Positions 4,086 through 25,140 of a stretch of DNA of 58,825 nucleotides are shown here, piece by piece. The stretch is from an uncultured Oscillospiraceae bacterium (GTDB taxonomy: Bacteria; Bacillota; Clostridia; Oscillospirales; Oscillospiraceae), in contig CANQVL010000012.1 in NCBI GenBank assembly GCA_947627285.1, positions 1 to 58,825 of the forward strand. Reading direction: 5' to 3'. The translations under genes were made by a program, and so were the position numbers. The notes beneath the pieces were generated by a model. That model was not told the DNA's origin. It searched no databases and was given only the letters and a program-made list of their open reading frames with translations. How positions within the stretch are numbered: position 1 is the first letter of the stretch; every line of letters begins with the position of its first letter.

Positions 4086-4131
4086 TCCCGTCCCCCCCTT
4101 CCGCGTTTATTTGAAGGCCCTCACCTGTAAA

Positions 4132-4268: not shown

Positions 4269-7200
4269 TTATTTGACCATAAGCGCCACAAGCTTACGGA
4301 TGGCGAGGGCGACCTGGGCGCGGGAGGCGCTGGCGGTGGGGTTCAGGTGACCGGAGCCGTCGCCGCTGAATATGCCGGAGGAAACCGCCCATTTCATGGC
4401 GTCCGACGCCCAATCCGCCACGTCAGCAGCATCGGTGAACGCTGTGAGCTCGCCGGTCTTCGCCGTGTTCATGCCCACGCTCACGGCGTACCTGTAGAGC
4501 ATCATTGCCATCTCCTGGCGGGTCACCTCACGTTCGGGCTCGAAGACGCCCTTGTCGGTGCCGGTGATTATGCCGGCGTCCGCCGCCCAGCTGATGCCCT
4601 CGGCGTACCCGGTGCTGTCATTTACATCGGGGAAGGCGACGGCGCCCTCCGAGGCGGCCTCGCTCTCCAGACGCCACAGGACCGTCGTCAGCATGGCGCG
4701 GGTCATGTCGCTCTCCGGCTCAAAGGTGGTTTCGCCGGTGCCGTTCAGAAGCTCATGGCTGGAGGAGAACGCCACGGCGTCACCGAACCAGGCGCCGGCG
4801 TCCACGTCCTCGAAGCTCTTGCTGTTGGTGATGATCTTCACTGCGGCGGAGCCGTCCAGGAGCACATAGGTCCTGCCGTTCTCCACAAGGGACTTGGGTA
4901 CGACGGTCTCGGCGCCGTCCTGGGAGACGATCACCGCCACCTCGCCGTCCTTCAACTCGAAGGATGCCTTGACGCCGCCGGGGATCTTGTTGACGGTATC
5001 ACCGCCGGCGGAGACCTGAACGGAGACGGTCTCCTCAGTCTTCTCCACAGACACAGCCACGTCGCCGGCCTTGCCCAGCTCAGGCAGGGCGGTTCCGGGG
5101 AGGGTGACGGAGCCCACGGGGGTCTCCACCTTCAGCGCCGCGTCTGTCCTCTCGGCGATGTCCGTGACGGTCTTACCGGAGATGGTGACCTCGGTTTTGG
5201 ATACGTCGCCGGAGATCTTCGGCGCGACAACCACAGTGTCGCTCCCGTTCTCCTCAGCCTGCTTGACGATCTCACTGCCCATGGAATCGGTGACCTTGGA
5301 GGTCGCCTCGCCGTTATTGACGGAGGCGTCGGGGACGGCGGTGGTCTCGGTGGTGGTCCCGCCGTCCTGGGTCTTGTCGCCGGTGGTGACGGAGGGCGTC
5401 GGTACGGGCGTGGGAACGTACGGGAGCGCGAGCTCGACCTGTCCCTTTTCCTCGTCCTCACCGTAGACCGTGCCGCCAAGCTGCGACGCCGAGAGGGAGA
5501 CGGTGGTCTTTGTATCGGGCATTCCCGTGCTGTAGGAGAAGCTCACGCGTAGCGCCTCGCCGGTGAAAGCGCCGGAGGCGGCGTAGGCGACGGTAACGGT
5601 CCCGGCCTCGGAGTCGATTTTGAAGGCGCGCAGCACCCTGCCGCTGCCGGAGACGCCCTGGAAGGTCAAAACCTCAGGGTCATATTTCACCGTCACAAGT
5701 CCGTTTGTGGACGCGCTGAGCTCGATTTTCGCCGTCACACTCGTCCCGGAGACGCTGCCGCTGAGGGAGACGTCCCCGCCGGAGGCCATGACGGTGCCGG
5801 CGTCGGTCTTCGGGGCGGCGCTCATGACGCGGAACCCGGAGGCAAGAGCTTCAGTCTCGGGGGTGTTTTCGAGGGAGAACATTGAGACGTCTTCTGGAGG
5901 TATCGGGTTAGGATTGAGACCTTCTTCCGCGTCAATACTTCCCTTGTCATATCCTTCGGACCACCCTATTTCATGACCATTGTCATAAGCGGCATCGTAC
6001 ACGCCATCCGAAAAGCCCTCATAGTAACCGCCTTCTCCGTAGTATTCCAGGTCAATCCCTACTGCCTCGTCTGCGTTGAGGTCGTAGCCCTCTCCGGAAA
6101 AATCTTCATAACCAGTGTAGTAACCTTCATCATAGCCGTCATAGTATCCTTCCCTGTATCTTTCATTACACAACTCCTCGTACTCATAAGGAACGCTGTA
6201 AGAATAAACAGCTTCTGAGCCGGCATCGTATCCCTGGTCGTAGTTATCCTCATCTATGTCTCCGCCGCCTTCGCCGCCGCCGATGGTGGTGGTGTCAACG
6301 AAGTCGCCGCTCAGGTCATGTTCGGTGTAAAGGCCCGCAAGGTCCGAAACGCCCTCGAGGATGCCCAGCTTGCCGAAGGAGGCAGGGGCAAGATCTTCGG
6401 TCAGTTCGAGCCAGTACAGGGCAGTACCGTTCCTGTCCGCGGCGTCGGAGATGAGAAGTCCGTCGTAACCGTCGCCCTTCACCCGGGTCATGGAGACCTT
6501 TGTCCTGTCGGCAAACTCCACGCCCAGCTCGGCAAACTGCTCAATGTCACTGACCGGAGTGGTGTAGACATCGCCAAACATATCCACATACGTTCTGCGG
6601 AAAACCTTCCAAAGATACCCGTCGGCGCCCAGCACGAACCACTCCTGGATGTAGCTGTCCTCGTCGTACTCCCCATCCACGTCCCAGCGGGAAATTTTGT
6701 TTCCGTACCATGTTATCGCCGCGGCGTCATAGCCCTCCAGCACGGAGCCGTGGGCGGTATTGGCGTCCGTGTAGTCATCCACAAACATGATCCAATCGTC
6801 GCCGGTGACGTACACGACCCCGCCGGGGACCTGGACGTCTTCTTTGGTTTGCACATACCATTCCTCATCAAAATACCGAAGCGTGACCGGCTCGCCGTAA
6901 ACGCAGGTGCCGTCCAGGATCTGCGTTCCCGCCGGGAGCGCGTCGCCTATATCAACGGAGTAGCTATATCCGTCTATACGCGTAAGCCAGATGCCGTTCA
7001 TGGCGTATATGCCCCCGTCATAGGCAGCCGCGCCGCTGTAGGCCCTGTCGTCTTGGGCGTTTTCGTAGAATGTCAGCGAGCTAAGGTCGATAGTCACCCA
7101 CGCGCCGGAGCCGTCGGGCTTCACTATGTAGGCGTTGGCAGTCGCGCCAGCCGGGGCGGTCGCCAGACCCTTGACCGTCACGGTGCAGGAGGCGGACGCG

Positions 7201-10200
7201 TCGCCGTATGTCGCGGTGATCACCGCAGTCCCGGCGCTCTTTCCGGTTACGACGCCGTCAGCGTCCACCTCAGCAACGTCATCACGGTCGCTGGACCATG
7301 TGACCTCGCCTGCCATGTCGGTGGGATAGACCGAGGCCGTCAGCTTCACCGTCTCGCCCACGTAGATCTCCGACTGGGCGGGTCTTACCTTGACCGTCAG
7401 CTCGCTGATGCGGTCGTACTGGTAAAGCGCAACCACGGGAGCCACGCCGGGGGCGAAGGCTCCCAGCTCCACAGCGGAGGCCTCATTCGGGTCGACGATG
7501 TACATTTTGTCGGTCCGCCCGTCGAGGCAGACGGACACCAGCAGGCAGCCGGAATCCTGGTCGTAGAGCATGGATGCGGACTGACCGCCGTAGACGGTGG
7601 AGACGCCTCCCAGGTCGATGCCGGTGGGCCCTATGTCGGTGAGCTCACAGTCATGGATGAGGGTGCCATAGCTCCACTCGTCGTAGGTCTCCCAAATGAC
7701 AGCCTTCCAGAGCTCGCCGCTCTCGGTCAACAGGTAGTATTCGCGAGAGGGACAGTCTAAATAATTGGCATATTGCGTCCCGCTGCCCTTGTACGCTATG
7801 ACGGCAGCCCTGTCGTCGTAGAACTGGCTTCTGGTTGCCATATCGTCGCCGGTGCCCTTCTCCGGGTTCATCACCGCGATGGAGGTGCCGCCGTCGATGC
7901 CGTCCACAAGGCCAACGATCCGCCCAAAGGCGGTGTCCTGCCCATCCAGCACCAGATCAGTGCTCAGAGGCGCCGGGGCCGCGTCAGGCCAGTTCCAGGT
8001 GAGGTCGATATTTGTGAGCGGACGCACGGAGAAGTTGTCCGCGTCCACGGCGTAGATCCTGTCGCCGTCGTGGACGTAGATGGTGTCGTCCAAAAGTGTG
8101 CCCGCGATATAGCTTGCGCTCGGTGACAGCTGCGTCCAGCTGCCCAGGTCCTTTGTGCTTGTTTCAATCCAGGCGGAGGTCCCGTCAGCCTTTGTCAGAA
8201 GGGCGCTGAATTCGATGTTGGGCAGCTCCTTCACGGTGACGGTGCAGGTCGCCTTCACTTCGCCCGAAACTGCCGACGCCGCCGTGACGGTGGCGGAGCC
8301 CGCCTTGACTGCCTTAACGACGCCGTTTTTCACCGTGACCGACGATTCGTTGTCGGAGGTCCACTTAAGGCTCTTGTCCCCAAGGTTCCAGGGGAACACG
8401 TCGGCGGTAAGGGTCACGGACGCGCCCTCAAGGAGCTCCACATTGTCCCTGCTGAGCTTGACGGAGGTTGCGCTCTCCGCCTCGGGGATGCGGGTGTCGT
8501 CGTTCTTCGGCACGATGTAGAGTCCGGGGATCTGCGACGAGGTAAGACCGCTGTTGTCATCCTCCGTTCGGAGAAGCTCCGCCTTACCGCTGGCGGGATT
8601 TCTGAACACGACGAGGCAGCTGTAAGTGGAAGTGTACTCGTCGCCGCTTGCCCAGTACAGTACGTCTTTGTCGTGGTCCCAGGCCATGGCCTGGAAAACA
8701 TTCTGCGGGTAATCAGGGGATCCGTAGAGATGGCTGCTGTAGAAATTGTTGCCCGTGCTTTCATTGGACACCGGCGAAAGATTGGCGATCTCGCCGTTTT
8801 CGATATTCTCCGCTCCCCATTTGTACAGGAAGGTCCACTGTGGGTTGCCCTTTACAGTTTTTGTGAAGCCGCCAGCGGACACGCTGTAGCCGCTGTTCAC
8901 GGAGTAGAAATTCCCCTCGTCGTCAATCGCCAGGGTCACGAGGACGGTGTTATTATCGTCCGTGCCATCGGCGGGGCAGGTGATGCTCACCTTGTAGTCC
9001 TCTGTCAGCTCGCCGGTGCTCAGGTTTACCCGGAAGACGGTGTTTTTATCGCCCAGCGCGTAAAGTATACCGTTCGTGTAGTTGTACGCCATATCGCGCA
9101 CCAGATCGGTACTGTCCTTGTAGCTTCCCAGAAGGACGGGGTCACTCCAGCGACCCTGCCGGGCAACGTACATATTCCCGTCGCCCGCCGCCATATAGAC
9201 GTATCCGCCCACATACTCCGCCGCCGTGACGGTGAAGGTGCTCTGCGCCACTGTCTCAACGCCCCTGTCGGCGGTATTATAAAAATTCAATTTATCCGGA
9301 TCTATGCGAAGCCAGCTGTTTGCGACGCCGTATCTGTAACCCGCGGTGAAGCCGAACATCTGCCCGCCGAAGTCCTCCTCCGGCTCGTCCTCGGTCTTCA
9401 GCGAGACGTCGTAAAGCTTCTCGTTCCCCGCGTAGTCGCCCACCAGGATCTTGCAGGTCCCGCTCTCAAATGAGGAGAGGTCGAAGGTGACGCTCCCCCT
9501 GCCGCCGGACTGCTCCACGGGCTGGGCGTCGATGATCTCCGTCCCGCCGGAGTTCATCATCACCACGGCGGCTATTGCCATGTTGTCCTGCGCGTTGACC
9601 ACCAGGTTCCCATCCTCATCCTTGGCGATGGACAGGGCGGTGGGCGCGGTGTCGTCCACGGTGAAGGTCCAGGACATGCACGCCCCGTCTCCCAGGGAGC
9701 CGTCCTTCTCCATATCAAGGACCCTATCGACCGTCAGCTCGCCGTCCTGCTCGTAATATTCCGGCACGGCGAGGACGCCCACGGTGAAGCTTTCGCCCTC
9801 GCTGAAGCCCATTCCCGAGGGGGAGGCGATGATCTCCGACAGTCCCGCCACAATGTAGTCCCAGAGAACGGTGCCGTCATGCTGGGTATAGGGGAAGCCT
9901 CCGGGATACTGACCGGCGATCTCCTCCGCTTCCACCACGTTCCCCTGCCCGTCCTTCACAAACAAAGTAATCTGGGCGGCGTTGCGGATAAGTGAAAACG
10001 CAATTGAATATATAAGCGACCGGCTGTTGATGGCGGCCCTGCCGTACATCGGCGTGTCCTCGATAAGATAGGGGTTTACCGACCAGTAGGAGCTCTCCCT
10101 CTCGCCGAACTGCCTTATTCCGATGTAGTTGGAGGTATAGAGCTGAGCAACAGGGTCGTCGGCAGGGGCGGCGATGATCTCGGGGGTGTTGACGCCCATA

Positions 10201-12812
10201 TATGAGCTCTCGCCGATACCGTAAAGCGCCTCAACATAGGTGGGGCTGTCAAACATGGGCGCGTCAGACCAGCTCCCGTAAAAGCCCAGGACCGGTATAG
10301 AGTGCTCCGGCAGGGCGACCCCCTCCTCGGTGCTCCCGGGGGTGACAAAGACATATCCTTCGATGTACGCGCCGTTGGGATATGTGGCGTCCAGGTACTC
10401 CCTGGCGCTGTCGTCCAGCCTCAGCGTCGCGGTCACATGGGCGCTGCCGCCATTCTCCAAAGTCAGCGTCTTCGTGCCCAGCTTCACCAGGAACAGATAC
10501 GCGTCCTCGGTGGTGAAGGTCCCGTCCCCGTTGAGGTCCGCCGCGCCGTCGAGACCGTCTACGTTCCCCGCGGCGTATGCCAGGATCATCAGGGCGTCGT
10601 CATTGTCCGTGTCGCCGTCCCCGTCCAGGTCGCAGACAAAGGGAGCTTCGGTAAAGCCCGCGCCTGTCACCTGGAAATCGGCGGTGGAAAGGAGGCGTCT
10701 TGTGCCGCCGCTGAGGCGGACGGTCCCCTCCCCGTCAGTGAAGACATCCTGGGTGAAGAGCTCCGCCCGGAGCTCATACTCCTCAGTCTGCCCTGTAAGA
10801 TCGCTCAGCGTGAAGCCGAAGGAATATTCGCCCGTCTTCCCGGCGTCCTCCCCCAGCTCCGCCTTGACCTTGCCCTTTTCAACGCCGGCGGCGGCGCTGT
10901 CGTCCATCGTAATGTAAGAGGAGCTCTGCGTGGCGAGGCCAACATTGGCAAGACCCGCGCCCTGCTGGAGGACCGGATAATACACGCCGTCCTCTCCGTC
11001 CACGGTGATGGGCACGGCGGTGGACATGAGAAGACTGTTCACCAGCTGTCCCGCGTTGAGGTCCGTCTTTTCCTCCAGGTGGTTTTCACGTATGTACTGA
11101 GCCATAAGCGCCGTCATGCCCGCGATCTGCGGGGACGCCATGGACGTACCGGACATGTTCTCATACGCGTCATGGGTATCTCCCGCGCCGTTGACGGAAT
11201 AGATATTGCCGCCTGGGGCGGTGATCTCGGGCTTGAGCTCCAGCGATCCGGGAACGCCCCAGGCGCTGAAGCTGCTCATGGCGTCGGGGCCCACGTTCTC
11301 AACGACGGTCACATCCGTGTTGACCGTCAGCGTGCCCTCGTAAATATCCACTCCGGATACCGTTTTCTTCTCGCCATACTTTCTCAGCGCCTCTCCGCAC
11401 TTGCTGGTGACGCTGAAGCACGGGTTCGTATAATCCCCGTGGCTCGACAGGTCCATATTCAAAAGCGAGTTTTCTGTGTTGACAACGATAAGACCGATGG
11501 CACCGGCGCCCATGGCGTTGTTCGCTTTTTGGGAGAAGTCGATATCACCGCGCATACAGACCGCCAGCTTACCGTTAACTTCGCTTGCAACGGCGTTAAA
11601 CTGATCCTCCGAGCCGATGCCGTCTATCATCACGTAGCTCTGAGGTCCCTTGACGCTCTCAACCGAGTTGAGTCCGTATTTGCTGCCGCCGTCATAGAAG
11701 GTGAATTTCTCGCCGCCCACGTCAACGGTCCTGTCAGTCATTCCCCTGTTGTCCGACGACGCTACCGAAAGGACGTCGGTGTAGGAGGCGGGAGAGGACA
11801 CGGTATTCATGCTCACGTCCTCCACCCGAAGGGAACCGGCGCCGCCAGCCTCATTGTCCGCCCAGCCTCCCTCGTTGCCGGCGGAGGCGGCTATTATTAA
11901 CCCGGCGTCGGTCAGCTCGTCCAGCAGCTCCTGATAATACTCGCTGCGGGAGAAGCCCATCTGGGGCGTTCCAAGGGACAGGTTCACCACGTTCGCGCCC
12001 AGATAGAAAGCGTCCTCGATGGCAGCCATATAGTCGGAATCGTACCCGCTGCCAGCTCTGCCGAAGACCTTCATGACCAGCAGCTGAGCGTCGGGCGCGA
12101 CGCCCTGGACCTTTACCGCGTCAAGGGCCTTTTCAAATCCGTCCTTCGACTCGGCGGGGACATAGGCGTTTGCCGCCGCGATACCCGCCACGTGGGAGCC
12201 GTGCTCGCCCTGGGTGTCATGGCTGTGGTCCACCTCAACGCTTATGTCGCCGTAGTTGAAGGCGAATGGCACCTTCGCGCTGTAATAGACATCATCCTCA
12301 TCCCATTTGTTGGCTTTCATCGCCGTGTAGATGTTGAGCCTGGGAAGGATATCCTTCAGGGACTCCTCGTCCAGAAGCTCAAGGCTGTCAAGCCAGCCAT
12401 CGGGCTTTTCAGCCTCCTGCAGCCCAAGGGAGTACATGAGAGCCTCCCCGTCAAAGCTCCGGTGCTGATAATCTATACCGGTGTCGATGATCGCGACGCG
12501 GGAGCCCGCGCCGGTGTATCCCGACTCCCAGAGCCGGTTGGCGCCTGTCATCTCCGAGGAGGTAGCCATCTGGGGCTCGGTCTCCTCCCGGACCGTGGAG
12601 AGGGGCCTGCTGGGCGTCTCGACAATGACGCGCGCCACGCCGTCAAGCTTCTCGATCTCCCTGATCTTTCCGTACTGCACATTGGCTGAGATGAGGTTAG
12701 CCGCCAGCGTCAGGTTCCAGACAACATCCAGCGGTTCACCGTCAAGGACCTTGTCCTCGATCTCCTCCACCACGTCAGACTGCTTTTGCTCCAGCTCCTG
12801 CTGGTACGACAC
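4269..12812 (-). CDS. giant cell-surface subtilase (S8) with dockerin-like, Big_2, cohesin-like and SLH domains
   Basis: This open frame covers 2,847 residues, but the true gene begins at 13117 in another frame (see the fragment and the G8 tract upstream); in-frame sequence before this ATG still encodes typical prodomain (TDTVRVSVVLED). Subtilase catalytic residues are Asp110 (AIIDTGID), His204 (HGSHVAG) and Ser near 555 (GTSMASP), with a protease-associated insert at about 360-500. Then come EF-hand/dockerin-like repeats (about 725-770, DLDGDGDTDNDDA), Ig-like Big_2 domains (about 1447-1527 and 1804-1884), a Tyr/Asp/Gly-rich GX3 repeat (about 2185-2305), a cohesin-like beta domain (about 2344-2450), a pre-SLH module and three SLH repeats (about 2667-2847). 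The SLH repeats should anchor the enzyme to cell-wall polymers. Substrate is unknown; size and modules suggest degradation of host or dietary protein or glycoprotein at the surface. Confidence 0.85.
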   Translation of the reverse strand: MSYQQELEQKQSDVVEEIEDKVLDGEPLDVVWNLTLAANLISANVQYGKIREIEKLDGVARVIVETPSRPLSTVREETEPQMATSSEMTGANRLWESGYTGAGSRVAIIDTGIDYQHRSFDGEALMYSLGLQEAEKPDGWLDSLELLDEESLKDILPRLNIYTAMKANKWDEDDVYYSAKVPFAFNYGDISVEVDHSHDTQGEHGSHVAGIAAANAYVPAESKDGFEKALDAVKVQGVAPDAQLLVMKVFGRAGSGYDSDYMAAIEDAFYLGANVVNLSLGTPQMGFSRSEYYQELLDELTDAGLIIAASAGNEGGWADNEAGGAGSLRVEDVSMNTVSSPASYTDVLSVASSDNRGMTDRTVDVGGEKFTFYDGGSKYGLNSVESVKGPQSYVMIDGIGSEDQFNAVASEVNGKLAVCMRGDIDFSQKANNAMGAGAIGLIVVNTENSLLNMDLSSHGDYTNPCFSVTSKCGEALRKYGEKKTVSGVDIYEGTLTVNTDVTVVENVGPDAMSSFSAWGVPGSLELKPEITAPGGNIYSVNGAGDTHDAYENMSGTSMASPQIAGMTALMAQYIRENHLEEKTDLNAGQLVNSLLMSTAVPITVDGEDGVYYPVLQQGAGLANVGLATQSSSYITMDDSAAAGVEKGKVKAELGEDAGKTGEYSFGFTLSDLTGQTEEYELRAELFTQDVFTDGEGTVRLSGGTRRLLSTADFQVTGAGFTEAPFVCDLDGDGDTDNDDALMILAYAAGNVDGLDGAADLNGDGTFTTEDAYLFLVKLGTKTLTLENGGSAHVTATLRLDDSAREYLDATYPNGAYIEGYVFVTPGSTEEGVALPEHSIPVLGFYGSWSDAPMFDSPTYVEALYGIGESSYMGVNTPEIIAAPADDPVAQLYTSNYIGIRQFGERESSYWSVNPYLIEDTPMYGRAAINSRSLIYSIAFSLIRNAAQITLFVKDGQGNVVEAEEIAGQYPGGFPYTQHDGTVLWDYIVAGLSEIIASPSGMGFSEGESFTVGVLAVPEYYEQDGELTVDRVLDMEKDGSLGDGACMSWTFTVDDTAPTALSIAKDEDGNLVVNAQDNMAIAAVVMMNSGGTEIIDAQPVEQSGGRGSVTFDLSSFESGTCKILVGDYAGNEKLYDVSLKTEDEPEEDFGGQMFGFTAGYRYGVANSWLRIDPDKLNFYNTADRGVETVAQSTFTVTAAEYVGGYVYMAAGDGNMYVARQGRWSDPVLLGSYKDSTDLVRDMAYNYTNGILYALGDKNTVFRVNLSTGELTEDYKVSITCPADGTDDNNTVLVTLAIDDEGNFYSVNSGYSVSAGGFTKTVKGNPQWTFLYKWGAENIENGEIANLSPVSNESTGNNFYSSHLYGSPDYPQNVFQAMAWDHDKDVLYWASGDEYTSTYSCLVVFRNPASGKAELLRTEDDNSGLTSSQIPGLYIVPKNDDTRIPEAESATSVKLSRDNVELLEGASVTLTADVFPWNLGDKSLKWTSDNESSVTVKNGVVKAVKAGSATVTAASAVSGEVKATCTVTVKELPNIEFSALLTKADGTSAWIETSTKDLGSWTQLSPSASYIAGTLLDDTIYVHDGDRIYAVDADNFSVRPLTNIDLTWNWPDAAPAPLSTDLVLDGQDTAFGRIVGLVDGIDGGTSIAVMNPEKGTGDDMATRSQFYDDRAAVIAYKGSGTQYANYLDCPSREYYLLTESGELWKAVIWETYDEWSYGTLIHDCELTDIGPTGIDLGGVSTVYGGQSASMLYDQDSGCLLVSVCLDGRTDKMYIVDPNEASAVELGAFAPGVAPVVALYQYDRISELTVKVRPAQSEIYVGETVKLTASVYPTDMAGEVTWSSDRDDVAEVDADGVVTGKSAGTAVITATYGDASASCTVTVKGLATAPAGATANAYIVKPDGSGAWVTIDLSSLTFYENAQDDRAYSGAAAYDGGIYAMNGIWLTRIDGYSYSVDIGDALPAGTQILDGTCVYGEPVTLRYFDEEWYVQTKEDVQVPGGVVYVTGDDWIMFVDDYTDANTAHGSVLEGYDAAAITWYGNKISRWDVDGEYDEDSYIQEWFVLGADGYLWKVFRRTYVDMFGDVYTTPVSDIEQFAELGVEFADRTKVSMTRVKGDGYDGLLISDAADRNGTALYWLELTEDLAPASFGKLGILEGVSDLAGLYTEHDLSGDFVDTTTIGGGEGGGDIDEDNYDQGYDAGSEAVYSYSVPYEYEELCNERYREGYYDGYDEGYYTGYEDFSGEGYDLNADEAVGIDLEYYGEGGYYEGFSDGVYDAAYDNGHEIGWSEGYDKGSIDAEEGLNPNPIPPEDVSMFSLENTPETEALASGFRVMSAAPKTDAGTVMASGGDVSLSGSVSGTSVTAKIELSASTNGLVTVKYDPEVLTFQGVSGSGRVLRAFKIDSEAGTVTVAYAASGAFTGEALRVSFSYSTGMPDTKTTVSLSASQLGGTVYGEDEEKGQVELALPYVPTPVPTPSVTTGDKTQDGGTTTETTAVPDASVNNGEATSKVTDSMGSEIVKQAEENGSDTVVVAPKISGDVSKTEVTISGKTVTDIAERTDAALKVETPVGSVTLPGTALPELGKAGDVAVSVEKTEETVSVQVSAGGDTVNKIPGGVKASFELKDGEVAVIVSQDGAETVVPKSLVENGRTYVLLDGSAAVKIITNSKSFEDVDAGAWFGDAVAFSSSHELLNGTGETTFEPESDMTRAMLTTVLWRLESEAASEGAVAFPDVNDSTGYAEGISWAADAGIITGTDKGVFEPEREVTRQEMAMMLYRYAVSVGMNTAKTGELTAFTDAADVADWASDAMKWAVSSGIFSGDGSGHLNPTASASRAQVALAIRKLVALMVK

Positions 12813-12874
12813 CGCCGGACCGTCAAGAGATATGGTCTGGACCGGATATCCGGCCTCCAGGACTGACTCGTCCT

Positions 12875-13117
12875 CTAAAACGACCGAGACACGGACCGTA
12901 TCTGTGTCATTAAAGCTACCCCCCCCGGCACGGAGTCCGGCGCGGTGAGGTGGAGCTTCGCGTCCACGGTGTCGTCTGATTCCGAGAATTCCAGCGGGGT
13001 CAGCCCTTCGGCTGTCACCTCTGTCTCCTCTCCGTCCGCGTATGCCGCCGGCATCATCCCTATCACCATAAGGACCGCCAGAAGCATTCCCAGGACGCGC
13101 TTTGTTCCTGTTCTCAT
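12875..13117 (-). pseudogene. signal-peptide fragment of the giant protease, separated by a frameshift
   Basis: An 80-codon frame with a strong ribosome site (GAGGAGGA) and a clear Sec signal peptide (basic RTGTKR, hydrophobic core, cleavage after AAYA). It carries the start of a subtilase prodomain (VDAKLHLTAPDSVPGG), then loses frame at a run of eight G (minus strand; 12919-12926) and stops 14 residues later. The other frame carries on directly with NDTDTVRVSVVLEDES and reaches the protease ATG at 12812 without a stop. Adding one G or removing two restores one gene of about 2,949 codons (4269-13117). This could be a sequencing error, a real mutation, a slippage-based on/off switch or -1 ribosomal slippage on G-GGG-GGG; the sequence alone does not decide. 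Confidence 0.8.
12919..12926 (-). repeat. G8 homopolymer at the protease frameshift
   Basis: Eight consecutive C on the plus strand (G on the coding strand) at exactly the point where the signal-peptide frame and the protease frame part. Tracts of this kind are known slippage sites. Confidence 0.9.
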
Positions 13118-13342
13118 AATGTTCCTCCTCGTTGTATTTCTCAGTTTGTTAACGCGGTTGACAAAATACTTTTTTGAATAATGTCGCGCGGCAGCGCGTC
13201 ATTTCGGAAAATATTTTTCCAGATAACTTTATCACGCTTCACCGAAAAACGCAATACCGGAGAGGAGAAAAATTCAAGAAAACGAAATATTTGGACGTAA
13301 AAGCGAGGATATAACGCATGCTTCGCCAGGTGAAGGAGGATC
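13118..13342. other. intergenic region upstream of the giant protease
   Basis: 225 nt, AT-richer than the surrounding genes. It holds the ribosome site of the protease (AGGAGGA near 13125). No convincing sigma-A promoter was found on the minus strand. A TTGACA facing the plus strand (about 13159) has no good -10 and no gene to serve. Confidence 0.4.
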
Positions 13343-20960: not shown

Positions 20961-23900
20961 TTACTTTGCCATGTAGTCGCAGAGCTTCATGAGAATCACG
21001 GCGGTTTGCGCGCGGGTGGTGGTGCCGGTGGGATTTAAGGTGTTGTTGCCCTGACCCGAGACGATGCCGGCGCCGATTGCCCACACCATCGCCTCTTTCG
21101 CGTAATTGTGTACCTCGCCAGCGTCGGTAAATGCGTCGATATTACCGGCGGTTTCCTTCACTACACCCTTAAATTGGGCGTATTTATAAATCAGAGTTAC
21201 AAGCTGTTCGCGGGAGATTTCATCGTTTGGCTTGAACAGTCCGTTCCCGTTGCCGCTGACGATGGAATTGGCGTCCGCCCAGGCAATGGCGGCGGCGTAA
21301 ATGCCGGTTTTGTCAACGTCGCTGAACTTCAGCTCAGGAGCTTCGGGCTCATAGCTCAGGCGGTAGAGCAGCGTCACAAGAGCTCCTCTGGACATTTCGT
21401 CGTCGGGCTTGAAGTTATTCTCGCCTGTGCCCGAGAACAGCTCGCGTGCCGATGTAAACTCAATGGCGTCGCCAGCCCATCCTTCCACTCGCTCAATATC
21501 CTTGAATTCCACGGAGTTTTCAACTATTTTCAGCGTAACGTCGCCATCAACGCTGAGCACAACGCCGTTTTCTCCGATGACGCAGTCACGGACAACTTTC
21601 TCTGTTCCGTCCGGGCTGACAAGCACCGCAACGGTGCCGGGGCCGAACTTGGTGACAGGGATCTCAACCCCGATTCGCCCGGCGGACTGTGATTTCAGGC
21701 TGATTTCCGGCGCCTCCGCCGCGGACTTCGCCGCCGGAACCCGGATCGGCGCGGTAACAATATCCTGCTTCTCGGTCTTGCCGTTCGCGGGAATGACCAC
21801 TTCGGCGGAGGTGACCTTGCCCCGTGCGTCGGTAGTGACCTTGCCGGTGACGCCCGCAGGCGTGACGGTCTTCTCGGTGATAGAGCCGTCGGTCAGCGTG
21901 ACCTTTTCGGTGACGGTGCCGTCGACCTTCTCGGTGGTCTCCGTGACAACGCCGTCCTTGGTCGTGGTGGTAGTTTTGGACCCGTCGGGGTTGGTGACGG
22001 TCCCGGCGTCGGCTCCGCCGCCCGCAGGTGCGCTGCTTCCGCCGGCTGATCCGCTTCCGCCGGTACTGCCGCCCGTGGCGCCGCCTCCGGTGGTTCCTCC
22101 GGTGCTTCCACCGGTGCTTCCACCAGTGCTGCCACCGGTACTTCCGCCGGTGCCGCCGGTCGAGGGGTCTGTCGAGGGCTGGGCAGGCGTCTTTGCGATC
22201 ACCGAGACAGGCGCACTGCCGGAGACTGCCGTATAGTTGGAGCTGTTCGGGGTGAAGGTCCAGTTGTAGGATGCGGTCGTATCACTCTTGGAGAGCACAA
22301 CTTCTGTCGGGTCGTCCACTCCGCCGATCCTGTCCCAGGTCACCTTGCCGGGGACGGTCTCGCCCTGCGCGCCGGTGGCGGTTGCTCTGAGCGTAGACTT
22401 ATCGAGGGTGTCGCCCTCGTTCACTCCGCTCGCGGTCACCGTAACGGTGGGGACAGCGGGGGCGATGACAAGTGTGGTCTCCATTTGGTTGTCAGAACAG
22501 TCGGAAAGACCGGTTGTGTCCGCCGTGACCTTTACCTTGTAGGTTCCGGCGTCAACGGGTGCAACGGTGGAAGTGCCGCCGTTGGAGCTGTATTCGACCT
22601 TAATCGTCGCGCCGCTGTTCGTCACGCCGGTGACGGTGTGAGGATTGCCGTCATAGGTGACGCTCGTCTCGCCGGATATTGCGAGGTCGGCGGGCTGAAC
22701 ATCCTTGCCGGAGACCGAGACATATCCGTGGACTACGGTGTAGTTATCAGAGGACGGCTTGAATATGTACTCGAGAGACTGTGCCTCTGAGGTGATTATT
22801 CTATTTCTCGCCTCGTCGGTGAGCTCGACCGTGCCGGTGACGGGCTCGCCGTTATACGGGTTGCGGTAGGTCGCCTGAATGGATTTTTCGATGGTGGAGG
22901 CGGGTTCGCCGTTCTTGCCGATTGGGGCGACTACGTCCACCTTCTGCGGGACGGCGGGGAGGACCTTGATGTTGCCGTCTACCCGATAGATGCGGTAGTT
23001 CCCGGCGCTGCCCGTTGCGGTGACGCCATAGCCATTGGTGTTCACGTTCGCCGTGGGCGAGGTGCCCGCGCTTGCAAGGACGGCCTGAATGTTTTCGGCG
23101 AGGTCAACGACGAGGCCGTCGGTGTCGTACTCGTTATCTACGCTTGTCACCGTCAGACTGGCAAAGTCGCTGCTGACGATGTCCATGCTCTGACCGTAGT
23201 ATTTGTGGAGCTCCTTCAACCGAAGGATGATATCTATCGGGAAGATCTCGCTGTACACCGTGACGGAATCAGGGAGAGCATATTTATCCGCGTGGTCGCC
23301 GACGATCTCGGTATTGGGCTTGAAGGTTATCGTCACGGCCTTGTTCGTTCCGACCGCGTCGTCTTCAAATTCTGCCTCGAGGCATTCAATACCGGTGAGT
23401 GTGCCACACCGGAGCATGAGTTGGTCTCCGATTACTCCGGTAACGATTTTATCGGTCGGAACAATCTGCCCGGAGGTCTTGCCCGCGTTATAGGGCTTGG
23501 AATAGACCTCAACATTGATATTTACGGTGCGCGGCTTTATGGTGTACTCCGTCGAAAATGCGGCGCCGGTGTAACCGTACCTCGGCTGAATGGTCGCGCT
23601 CACGTCGTAAATGCCGGGATTTGTCGGCGCGGTCTCGGTCCAACCGCCGGACTTGTCATGTTCCTTATAAAGGACGTAGATGCTGTCCGAGCCTGCCTGA
23701 CTGTCGGTCCTGTTGGTCGTAAATTTCAGCGGCTGAGCCTTGCCGTTGTACTGAACCTCGGTCGCCGAGGGGGTGAGGGTGGTGAATACGAGCTGACCGA
23801 TATCCTGGTCAAAGGTGCCGTCGCCTATCTTTACGGCGATATAGCTGTTGTAGGCATTGTAATTCGTTGTATCTATCGGGGTGAAGGTAAAGGGGCAGAT

Positions 23901-24896
23901 GCAGAAGATTCCGCCCTTTATCTCCTGACCGGGGTCACCCCATGTGAACTTGCCCGCCACCGTGCCGCCGCTAAAGGGGTTGACAAACGTACCGGTGGGG
24001 ACGTTGCCGCCTTCGGATTCGCCGGCGTTGGAAAGGACGGTGCCCTTTGTGAACTCCTTGACGTATATCTCTTTAGGCTTCGGCATGACCTTTTCGACGG
24101 TTATTGCGGTCGTGCCGCTGACCGTGACAGCATAGCTGCCGTAGATGGAGGTGACGCCAGTATAATCGTAGCTGTACGGACTGGCCGAAACGGACGAGTT
24201 CGCGTCCGCGCCTTGACCGCGGAGCTCCTTCACGCCAAGGTCGGCGAGCGTCTTGCCATTGATCTCGGGATCGTCACACGTGACCTTTATGTCAGCGGGG
24301 TCAAGCGCCGTGCCATAGGGCTTGGTGATGGTCGCCTGCGGCGTGACGGTGACGGGCTTGAGCTCAACGCCTATCGTGAGCTTGACCGTCCAACCGATGT
24401 GGCTGTTCTGCTCCATGAAGAGTATGGTTTCCTCGAGCTGTCCGGCAGGAAGGTCACTCCGAGGGGTGATGGTGAGGACTGCGGTATCGCCCTTGTTTTC
24501 GATGTGGCCTTTCGATTTGTCCCACTCGAAGTTGAAGTAAGCGGAGCGGTTGACAACGGCGATGTCCACCTTGCCGTAGTTGTTGGGGTTTCCGTTGTCG
24601 GTGTCATAGTCCTCGGTTTCGCTGATGTTCGTGAAGGTGAGCTCGAGCGATTCGCCGCTTGTACTGCCGTAGTTTATTGCTTTGAAGTTGTAGGTCTGCG
24701 TTCCCTCAAGCTCGCGAATTTCCGCGCCTGCGTCAGTGCCTTCTTCGGACGTCTTACTGGCTGTAACTGAGTAGAGCCACGGCGTCCGGTGGGTGCGGAA
24801 ATCGTCCGAACTCCCCTCCCCGGCGAGAGCCGTGACAGGCAGGGCGCTTATCACCATGCACAGGACGAGAAGCAGGACAAGATACCTGTTTTTCAT
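20961..24896 (-). CDS. secreted surface protein with MBG/YDG and Ig-like repeats and three SLH domains
   Basis: A 1,311-residue protein. I take the ATG at 24896 because it opens a clear signal peptide (KNRYLVLLLVLCMV, cleavage after ALA); the frame is open further upstream but includes AT-rich non-coding-like sequence and the promoter. Following are repeated beta-sandwich modules resembling MBG/YDG and bacterial Ig-like domains (for instance ATITKPYGTALD near 255, TSVTYDGNPHTVTG near 770), a Gly/Ser/Thr linker (about 910-950), a Thr/Val-rich stretch, the same pre-SLH module as the giant protease, and three SLH repeats (about 1129-1311). No catalytic domain is seen, so an adhesin or S-layer-associated structural protein is most likely. 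Its C-terminus closely resembles that of the truncated gene at the right end of the window. Confidence 0.85.
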   Translation of the reverse strand: MKNRYLVLLLVLCMVISALPVTALAGEGSSDDFRTHRTPWLYSVTASKTSEEGTDAGAEIRELEGTQTYNFKAINYGSTSGESLELTFTNISETEDYDTDNGNPNNYGKVDIAVVNRSAYFNFEWDKSKGHIENKGDTAVLTITPRSDLPAGQLEETILFMEQNSHIGWTVKLTIGVELKPVTVTPQATITKPYGTALDPADIKVTCDDPEINGKTLADLGVKELRGQGADANSSVSASPYSYDYTGVTSIYGSYAVTVSGTTAITVEKVMPKPKEIYVKEFTKGTVLSNAGESEGGNVPTGTFVNPFSGGTVAGKFTWGDPGQEIKGGIFCICPFTFTPIDTTNYNAYNSYIAVKIGDGTFDQDIGQLVFTTLTPSATEVQYNGKAQPLKFTTNRTDSQAGSDSIYVLYKEHDKSGGWTETAPTNPGIYDVSATIQPRYGYTGAAFSTEYTIKPRTVNINVEVYSKPYNAGKTSGQIVPTDKIVTGVIGDQLMLRCGTLTGIECLEAEFEDDAVGTNKAVTITFKPNTEIVGDHADKYALPDSVTVYSEIFPIDIILRLKELHKYYGQSMDIVSSDFASLTVTSVDNEYDTDGLVVDLAENIQAVLASAGTSPTANVNTNGYGVTATGSAGNYRIYRVDGNIKVLPAVPQKVDVVAPIGKNGEPASTIEKSIQATYRNPYNGEPVTGTVELTDEARNRIITSEAQSLEYIFKPSSDNYTVVHGYVSVSGKDVQPADLAISGETSVTYDGNPHTVTGVTNSGATIKVEYSSNGGTSTVAPVDAGTYKVKVTADTTGLSDCSDNQMETTLVIAPAVPTVTVTASGVNEGDTLDKSTLRATATGAQGETVPGKVTWDRIGGVDDPTEVVLSKSDTTASYNWTFTPNSSNYTAVSGSAPVSVIAKTPAQPSTDPSTGGTGGSTGGSTGGSTGGSTGGTTGGGATGGSTGGSGSAGGSSAPAGGGADAGTVTNPDGSKTTTTTKDGVVTETTEKVDGTVTEKVTLTDGSITEKTVTPAGVTGKVTTDARGKVTSAEVVIPANGKTEKQDIVTAPIRVPAAKSAAEAPEISLKSQSAGRIGVEIPVTKFGPGTVAVLVSPDGTEKVVRDCVIGENGVVLSVDGDVTLKIVENSVEFKDIERVEGWAGDAIEFTSARELFSGTGENNFKPDDEMSRGALVTLLYRLSYEPEAPELKFSDVDKTGIYAAAIAWADANSIVSGNGNGLFKPNDEISREQLVTLIYKYAQFKGVVKETAGNIDAFTDAGEVHNYAKEAMVWAIGAGIVSGQGNNTLNPTGTTTRAQTAVILMKLCDYMAK
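22087..22160 (-). repeat. 12-bp tandem repeat encoding a Gly-Ser-Thr linker
   Basis: About six degenerate copies of CCACCGGTGCTT (plus strand), coding for STGG units in the SLH protein. In-frame copies can change in number without breaking the gene. Confidence 0.8.
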
Positions 24897-24990
24897 TTTG
24901 TAACTTCTTTCCGCCGCGATATACGCGGCAAGGTGATATTCGGCGCTCGGAAGAAAAATCTCCGAGAAGCCGGTGAATACATTCATGTAA

Positions 24991-25019
24991 ATTGTACTAT
25001 ACTGCGCGTTAAATTGCAA
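24991..25019 (-). promoter_or_regulatory. promoter of the second SLH gene
   Basis: On the minus strand TTGCAA (25014-25019) and TACAAT (24991-24996) with 17-bp spacing. It lies within the upstream open frame, which supports the start at 24896; the 5' leader would be about 88 nt. Confidence 0.7.
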
Positions 25020-25102
25020 CAGTAATTTTTGGGAATTTTCATCATTTAAAAAATCATTTAAAAAATTACAGGTTTTTTCCGCCAAAATCTGTACGTTTAC
25101 AG

Positions 25103-25140
25103 AAAAAATCCGTGAATTTCGCAAAATTCACGGATTTTTT
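25103..25140 (-). terminator. bidirectional terminator after tRNA-Pro
   Basis: Arms ATCCGTGAATTT (25108-25119) and AAATTCACGGAT (25124-25135), A-run before and T-run after, so U-rich ends in both directions. It lies about 30 nt beyond the 3' end of the tRNA gene. Confidence 0.85.

Follow-up and report, generated by a model that had tools for sequence, protein, structure and literature searches.

A subtilase gene interrupted by a G8 tract in an uncultured Oscillospiraceae bacterium: a probable slipped-strand phase-variable locus

Tract slippage is best known from Campylobacter, the genomes of which are AT-rich, and from Neisseria; uncultured gut Clostridia are commonly viewed as genetically steady commensals, and in Clostridioides difficile the CwpV and flagellar switches act through DNA inversion, not tract slippage. 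The poly-G contingency loci of Campylobacter are reported to be G runs spread over the genome, with many in surface-glycan genes (PMC4965091, PMC6321876). In C. difficile, CwpV and the flagella are reported to be phase-variable (PMC3080850, PMC10889297). In Bifidobacterium breve, a sortase pilus is under the control of a G-tract switch, for which mixtures of tract length were measured by deep sequencing and mouse passage (PMC9187656).

The locus described here was found in a window of 58,825 nucleotides, which is the whole stretch of DNA analysed and equals one contig (C12) of a draft genome of 2.81 Mb in 95 contigs. It resembles the pilus switch of the gut commensal B. breve in that a G run lies inside a gene for a surface structure, close to its start, and in consisting of two ORFs that are fused only at certain tract lengths, with the annotated genome holding the split form (PMC9187656). 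Unlike the actinobacterial pilus, the gene encodes a predicted SLH-anchored protease in another phylum and is known from one assembly. As in Campylobacter, there is a set of G runs across the genome; unlike Campylobacter with its measured switching, the genome is GC-rich and the set is smaller (13 runs of G8 or longer) and known from sequence. The likeness to C. difficile CwpV and flagella would be that of phase-variable cell-surface proteins in Clostridia, but tract slippage rather than inversion is proposed here. The feature is real, and the proposed mechanism is of a type already known from other bacteria, in a lineage for which a partial coverage of the literature gave no report of poly-G phase variation.

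Inspection of the sequence and its ORFs confirmed the claim of an earlier note on this DNA that a signal-peptide ORF, running leftward from 13117, and a protease frame meet out of frame at eight Gs (12919-12926). The ORF starts at an ATG at 13117 behind GAGGAGG and ends at 12875. No stop interrupts the protease frame between 13148 and 4269, and its first start codon past the tract is a GTG at 12812. The run is within the gene, at codon 64 of about 2,950, and its length sets the outcome: at the assembled length a stop follows after 80 aa, and it is at the run that the two coding frames join. The sequence on both sides of the tract looks coding, as had been proposed, both by gene-like GC at the three codon positions (0.67/0.43/0.75 for the 63 codons that lead up to the tract versus 0.59/0.44/0.79 for the protease ORF) and by homology to relatives, which align with the protease frame from 2-10 residues past the tract, about 30 codons ahead of the first start codon.

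A frame break with an early stop could also mark a recent, permanent frameshift in a decaying gene, and loss does occur in the family, since the N-terminal region of one relative (L097) is likewise interrupted, by a nonsense codon. Such a fixed loss of function is quite unlikely here, as about 2,850 codons are free of a further lesion, the S8 motifs are intact, and the break coincides with one of the 13 long runs that are in excess in the genome.

Table 1 Features of the split protease gene, and long G runs in its own genome and in sister species.
Feature	Position, contig or genome	Strand	Basis or detail
Peptidase_S8 (PF00082), E 7.1e-45, with PA domain; DTG, HGSH and GTSMAS motifs by eye	11016..12512	-	Pfam
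Best of three C-terminal SLH domains, residues 2727-2769	4506..4634	-	Pfam
G8 homopolymer (C8 on +), TAG next on the coding strand; proposed slippage tract	12919..12926	-	Sequence
80-aa ORF: signal peptide and linker, 17 out-of-frame codons, stop; product at the assembled phase	12875..13117	-	ORF translation
GAGGAGG, Shine-Dalgarno-like, ahead of ATG 13117	13124..13130	-	Sequence
Protease frame past the tract; 2,847-aa ORF counted from GTG 12812	4269..12918	-	ORF list, homology
Candidate recoding stimulator, 84 nt past the tract; RNA fold -32.6 kcal/mol, z -3.05	12835..12918	-	Folding versus shuffles
Family 2 glycosyltransferase, split at G10	C14		PF00535 positions 1-79 and 73-119 in two frames
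Tyrosine integrase of mobile element, split at G8	C7, L200 (G000:C7:62733)		PF00589 26-99 and 110-170 in two frames
ORF pair, split at G9	C2		Without Pfam match
FtsQ-type POTRA protein, G9 in frame	C5
Alpha-amylase, G8 in frame	C29
AraC-like C-terminus, G9 in frame	C1		By eye
Leader of 1,004-aa SLH protein, G8	C8
Shine-Dalgarno site of amidohydrolase-like gene, G8	C22
Codon 8 of short ORF preceding phage-tail-like ORF, G9	C2		By eye
Non-coding or ambiguous runs	C4, C7:50043, C43
SLH-protein leader	G8 own, G10 G005		73% over 224 aa
Pilus/secretion ATPase leader (T2SSE, MshEN)	G10 G047, G10 G015, G11 G017
Acyltransferase-like gene	G9 G024, G10 G013		By eye
Further same-position set	G9 G011, G10 G047, G9 G018

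Domain scores indicate that the gene product is an S8 subtilase with an SLH anchor, with PF00082 at 144.7 bits (cut-off 21.8) and SLH at 97.9 bits (cut-off 20.8), both above the Pfam threshold; protease activity and surface location are predicted. Big_2 and weak fn3_5 matches are also present. The domain set is similar to that of the cell-envelope S8 proteases, which have PA, Fn3-like, Big_2 and SLH parts, but the protein is far longer than most of these and its N-terminus is interrupted in the assembly. A second large SLH protein, of 1,387 aa, is encoded in the window at 20961-25124.

Relatives of the protease were counted per gene and came from a set of 40 genomes of which 10 had a match, from the best 80 of 157 relatives and from 11 of 34 genomes (own genome included), one of the relatives being a paralog in the own genome; three of the 97 genes were cut or not assessable, hence 94. 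In 93 of these, the signal peptide, the linker and a VRVSIVLE-like conserved region are in a single frame. In L097, the lone exception, the frame is unshifted but is interrupted by a TAG upstream of 1392, past the signal peptide and ahead of the prodomain. The two halves at the tract are thus one gene, because the homology starts before GTG 12812, the relatives are single-frame and a Shine-Dalgarno sequence is present at the ATG but not at the GTG. The possibility that the protease frame has a start of its own was rejected on the same grounds: the bases ahead of GTG 12812 are without a Shine-Dalgarno-like sequence and the homology begins earlier.

The same comparison bears on programmed -1 ribosomal frameshifting or transcript slippage, by which the full protein would be made from G8. 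The slippery heptamer G-GGG-GGG pointed out in the earlier note is indeed present in the right frame, -1 is the direction needed, and the 84 nt downstream of the tract are predicted to fold with a z-score that 1 of 200 shuffles equalled. The z-score is just -1.68 when the tract is included (81 nt), and the site is not conserved, as 93 of the 94 assessable relatives are single-frame and need no recoding, the remaining one having its nonsense codon. Recoding is very improbable.

The earlier note had also proposed that the tract be compared across related genomes, and here the result was negative: runs of at least six Gs or Cs were found in the N-terminal coding region of 0 of 91 protease relatives. 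The protease family as such accordingly does not carry the switch, and that idea was rejected. One relative found later (L341) has a G6, which is outside the gene. No ortholog closer than 53% to the protease was found among the 34 genomes, and there was no close ortholog in named genomes among the best 80 of 157 relatives (top 50%), a set that may lack records close to the genome of the window. Some sister genomes have many S8 protease copies, with 10-11 matches in G004 (loci L188, L005, L013, L017, L021 and L023-L029) and 7 in G046, counted as aligned places.

Long G runs are in excess in the genome. Exact counts on both strands are 609 for G6, 25 for G7, 6 for G8, 6 for G9 and 1 for G10, such that a 24-fold drop from G6 to G7 is followed by a halt in the decay and the distribution is not smooth. 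Extrapolation from G6 and G7 gives about one G8 (1.0 expected, 6 present; Poisson P 7e-4) and 0.04 runs of G9 or longer (7 present; P 6e-14). If the step ratio is set leniently at 0.25, the expectation for G8 is 6.25, with no excess, and G9+ is still in excess (P 0.006); for this reason the statistics are weaker for the G8 at 12919-12926 than for the long-run class. The 13 runs of G8 or longer include three split genes with domain or homology support on both sides (Table 1). Some of the runs are outside surface genes, namely those in the FtsQ-type, amylase and integrase genes and at the amidohydrolase-like Shine-Dalgarno site. Two G7 runs in the window (C7 on the + strand; 2279-2285 and 4092-4098) are a few bases upstream of minus-strand ATGs, of a DUF1349 and a sigma-70-like gene, and may serve as Shine-Dalgarno sites.

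Runs of G9 or longer were found in at least 26 of 34 genus genomes, and 147 distinct runs of G8 or longer, from the own genome and selected stretches of sister species, were examined. At the same position in different species, run lengths differ in several genes (Table 1), all of them genes other than the protease. Equal-length pairs also occur, G10 in each of G022 and G004 for a hexapeptide transferase and G9 in each of G013 and G011. The T2SSE/MshEN ATPase leader has runs of G9 to G11 in loci L333, L300, L245 and L228, the length depending on the species. Within 19 kb of G022, six runs are clustered in or beside transferase-type and sugar-enzyme genes, and several of these runs are G9-G10.

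Pfam searches with 20 tract-side pieces of sister genomes (L271, L304, L307 and L316 are outside this set) revealed a UbiA-family gene split at G8 with a UbiA match on each side. Hexapeptide transferases, a methyltransferase, a family 1 glycosyltransferase and a DNA methylase had a match on the downstream side only, while GNAT, family 2 glycosyltransferase and FkbM methyltransferase genes are whole at the run. Seven of the 20 pieces had no Pfam match, so most of the sister-genome splits have a match on a single side. Both split and whole states are found among independent assemblies. Many of the genus runs of G9 or longer, among those listed (an almost unbiased set), are in repeats or intergenic. 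Among the matches listed, contigs end at such runs in three cases (the end of G002:C21 and the starts of G002:C70 and G022:C114), which is what a failure of assemblers at tracts of mixed length would produce; other causes are possible. In a type IV pilin-like gene at L246:951-1060 (G015:C60), for which the Pfam N_methyl match is barely above the cut-off, a G9 is located at the prepilin cleavage motif (KKLT, G9, FTLAELL). L254 (G006:C26) has a G9 at the equivalent place, as judged by opposite-strand translation similarity only.

Taken as a single tract, the G8 in the protease gene would be explained by a mistake in sequencing or assembly, the real tract having another length and the gene being simply whole. 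The long gene is open but for one lesion, and this lies at a homopolymer, a kind of site prone to errors. Moreover, 93 of the 94 relatives that could be assessed have a single frame, the genome is a draft in 95 contigs, and annotated G-tract lengths can be wrong, as is cautioned in PMC9187656. This option, which the earlier note had raised, does not account for the long-tract class: single-base mistakes make neither an excess of G8-G10 nor same-position tracts across independent assemblies. In addition, the window has seven runs of six G or C, and each of them sits within a longer open ORF. An error is unlikely.

TA comes after long G runs more often than after shorter ones, and above expectation. 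In the own genome TA is next to 8 of 13 runs of G8 or longer versus 3 of 25 G7 runs (Fisher P 0.0026); in the nearly unbiased genus set it follows 27 of the 97 G9+ runs among those listed, which is weaker than in the own genome. Against a reversed-pattern control, which is crude, G7TA was counted 162 times versus 76 in the 34 genus genomes and G8TA 102 times versus 28 (a row count) in 147 genomes of the order. TA occurs after runs in all three codon frames, C often precedes the run, and TA runs are often preceded by A/T-rich sequence. Scans of viral contigs for the pattern with the flanks of the protease tract and of a prophage tract gave 0 matches each. We tentatively suggest, as a possibility that is still doubtful, that a whole gut-type Clostridia lineage carries undescribed poly-G contingency loci that act on S-layer proteins, type IV pili and the glycans of the surface, with a signature at the DNA level (G8-12 preceded by A/T-rich sequence, in many cases with a final C, and followed by TA) that is read in all three codon frames, which would hint at a common origin or upkeep beyond the chance growth of glycine codons.

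The protease tract itself is best interpreted as a slipped-strand phase-variable locus caught in the OFF state in the assembly, to which we assign a probability of about 0.68. Of the options in the earlier note, the phase switch is the most likely because long G runs exceed chance both here and in sister species and several of them split other genes in the same way; in other genes, lengths at one position also differ between species. The 8.5 kb of protease frame beyond the tract, which have no other break, agree with this reading. Slipped-strand mispairing during replication would add or remove Gs, so that cells would differ in tract length. In the ON state, one length class would put the signal peptide, prodomain and protease in frame and an S-layer-anchored protease would be exported. 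At other lengths, including the assembled one, translation from the sole Shine-Dalgarno start would end at 80 aa and no exported protease would be made. We infer that the length changes at 12919-12926 in living cells, that the change is reversible and that the protease has a role at the cell surface. G8 is at the short end of the range, and the own tract could be stable. Also counting against the switch are the lack of such a tract in the protease relatives, the own runs outside surface genes and the many genus runs in repeats or between genes.

If this interpretation is true, uncultured gut Clostridia would diversify their surface via tract slippage, as do Campylobacter and Neisseria. Gene finders would mis-call such genes in metagenome assemblies as two ORFs or as pseudogenes, and the ON and OFF fractions would be directly measurable from faecal reads.
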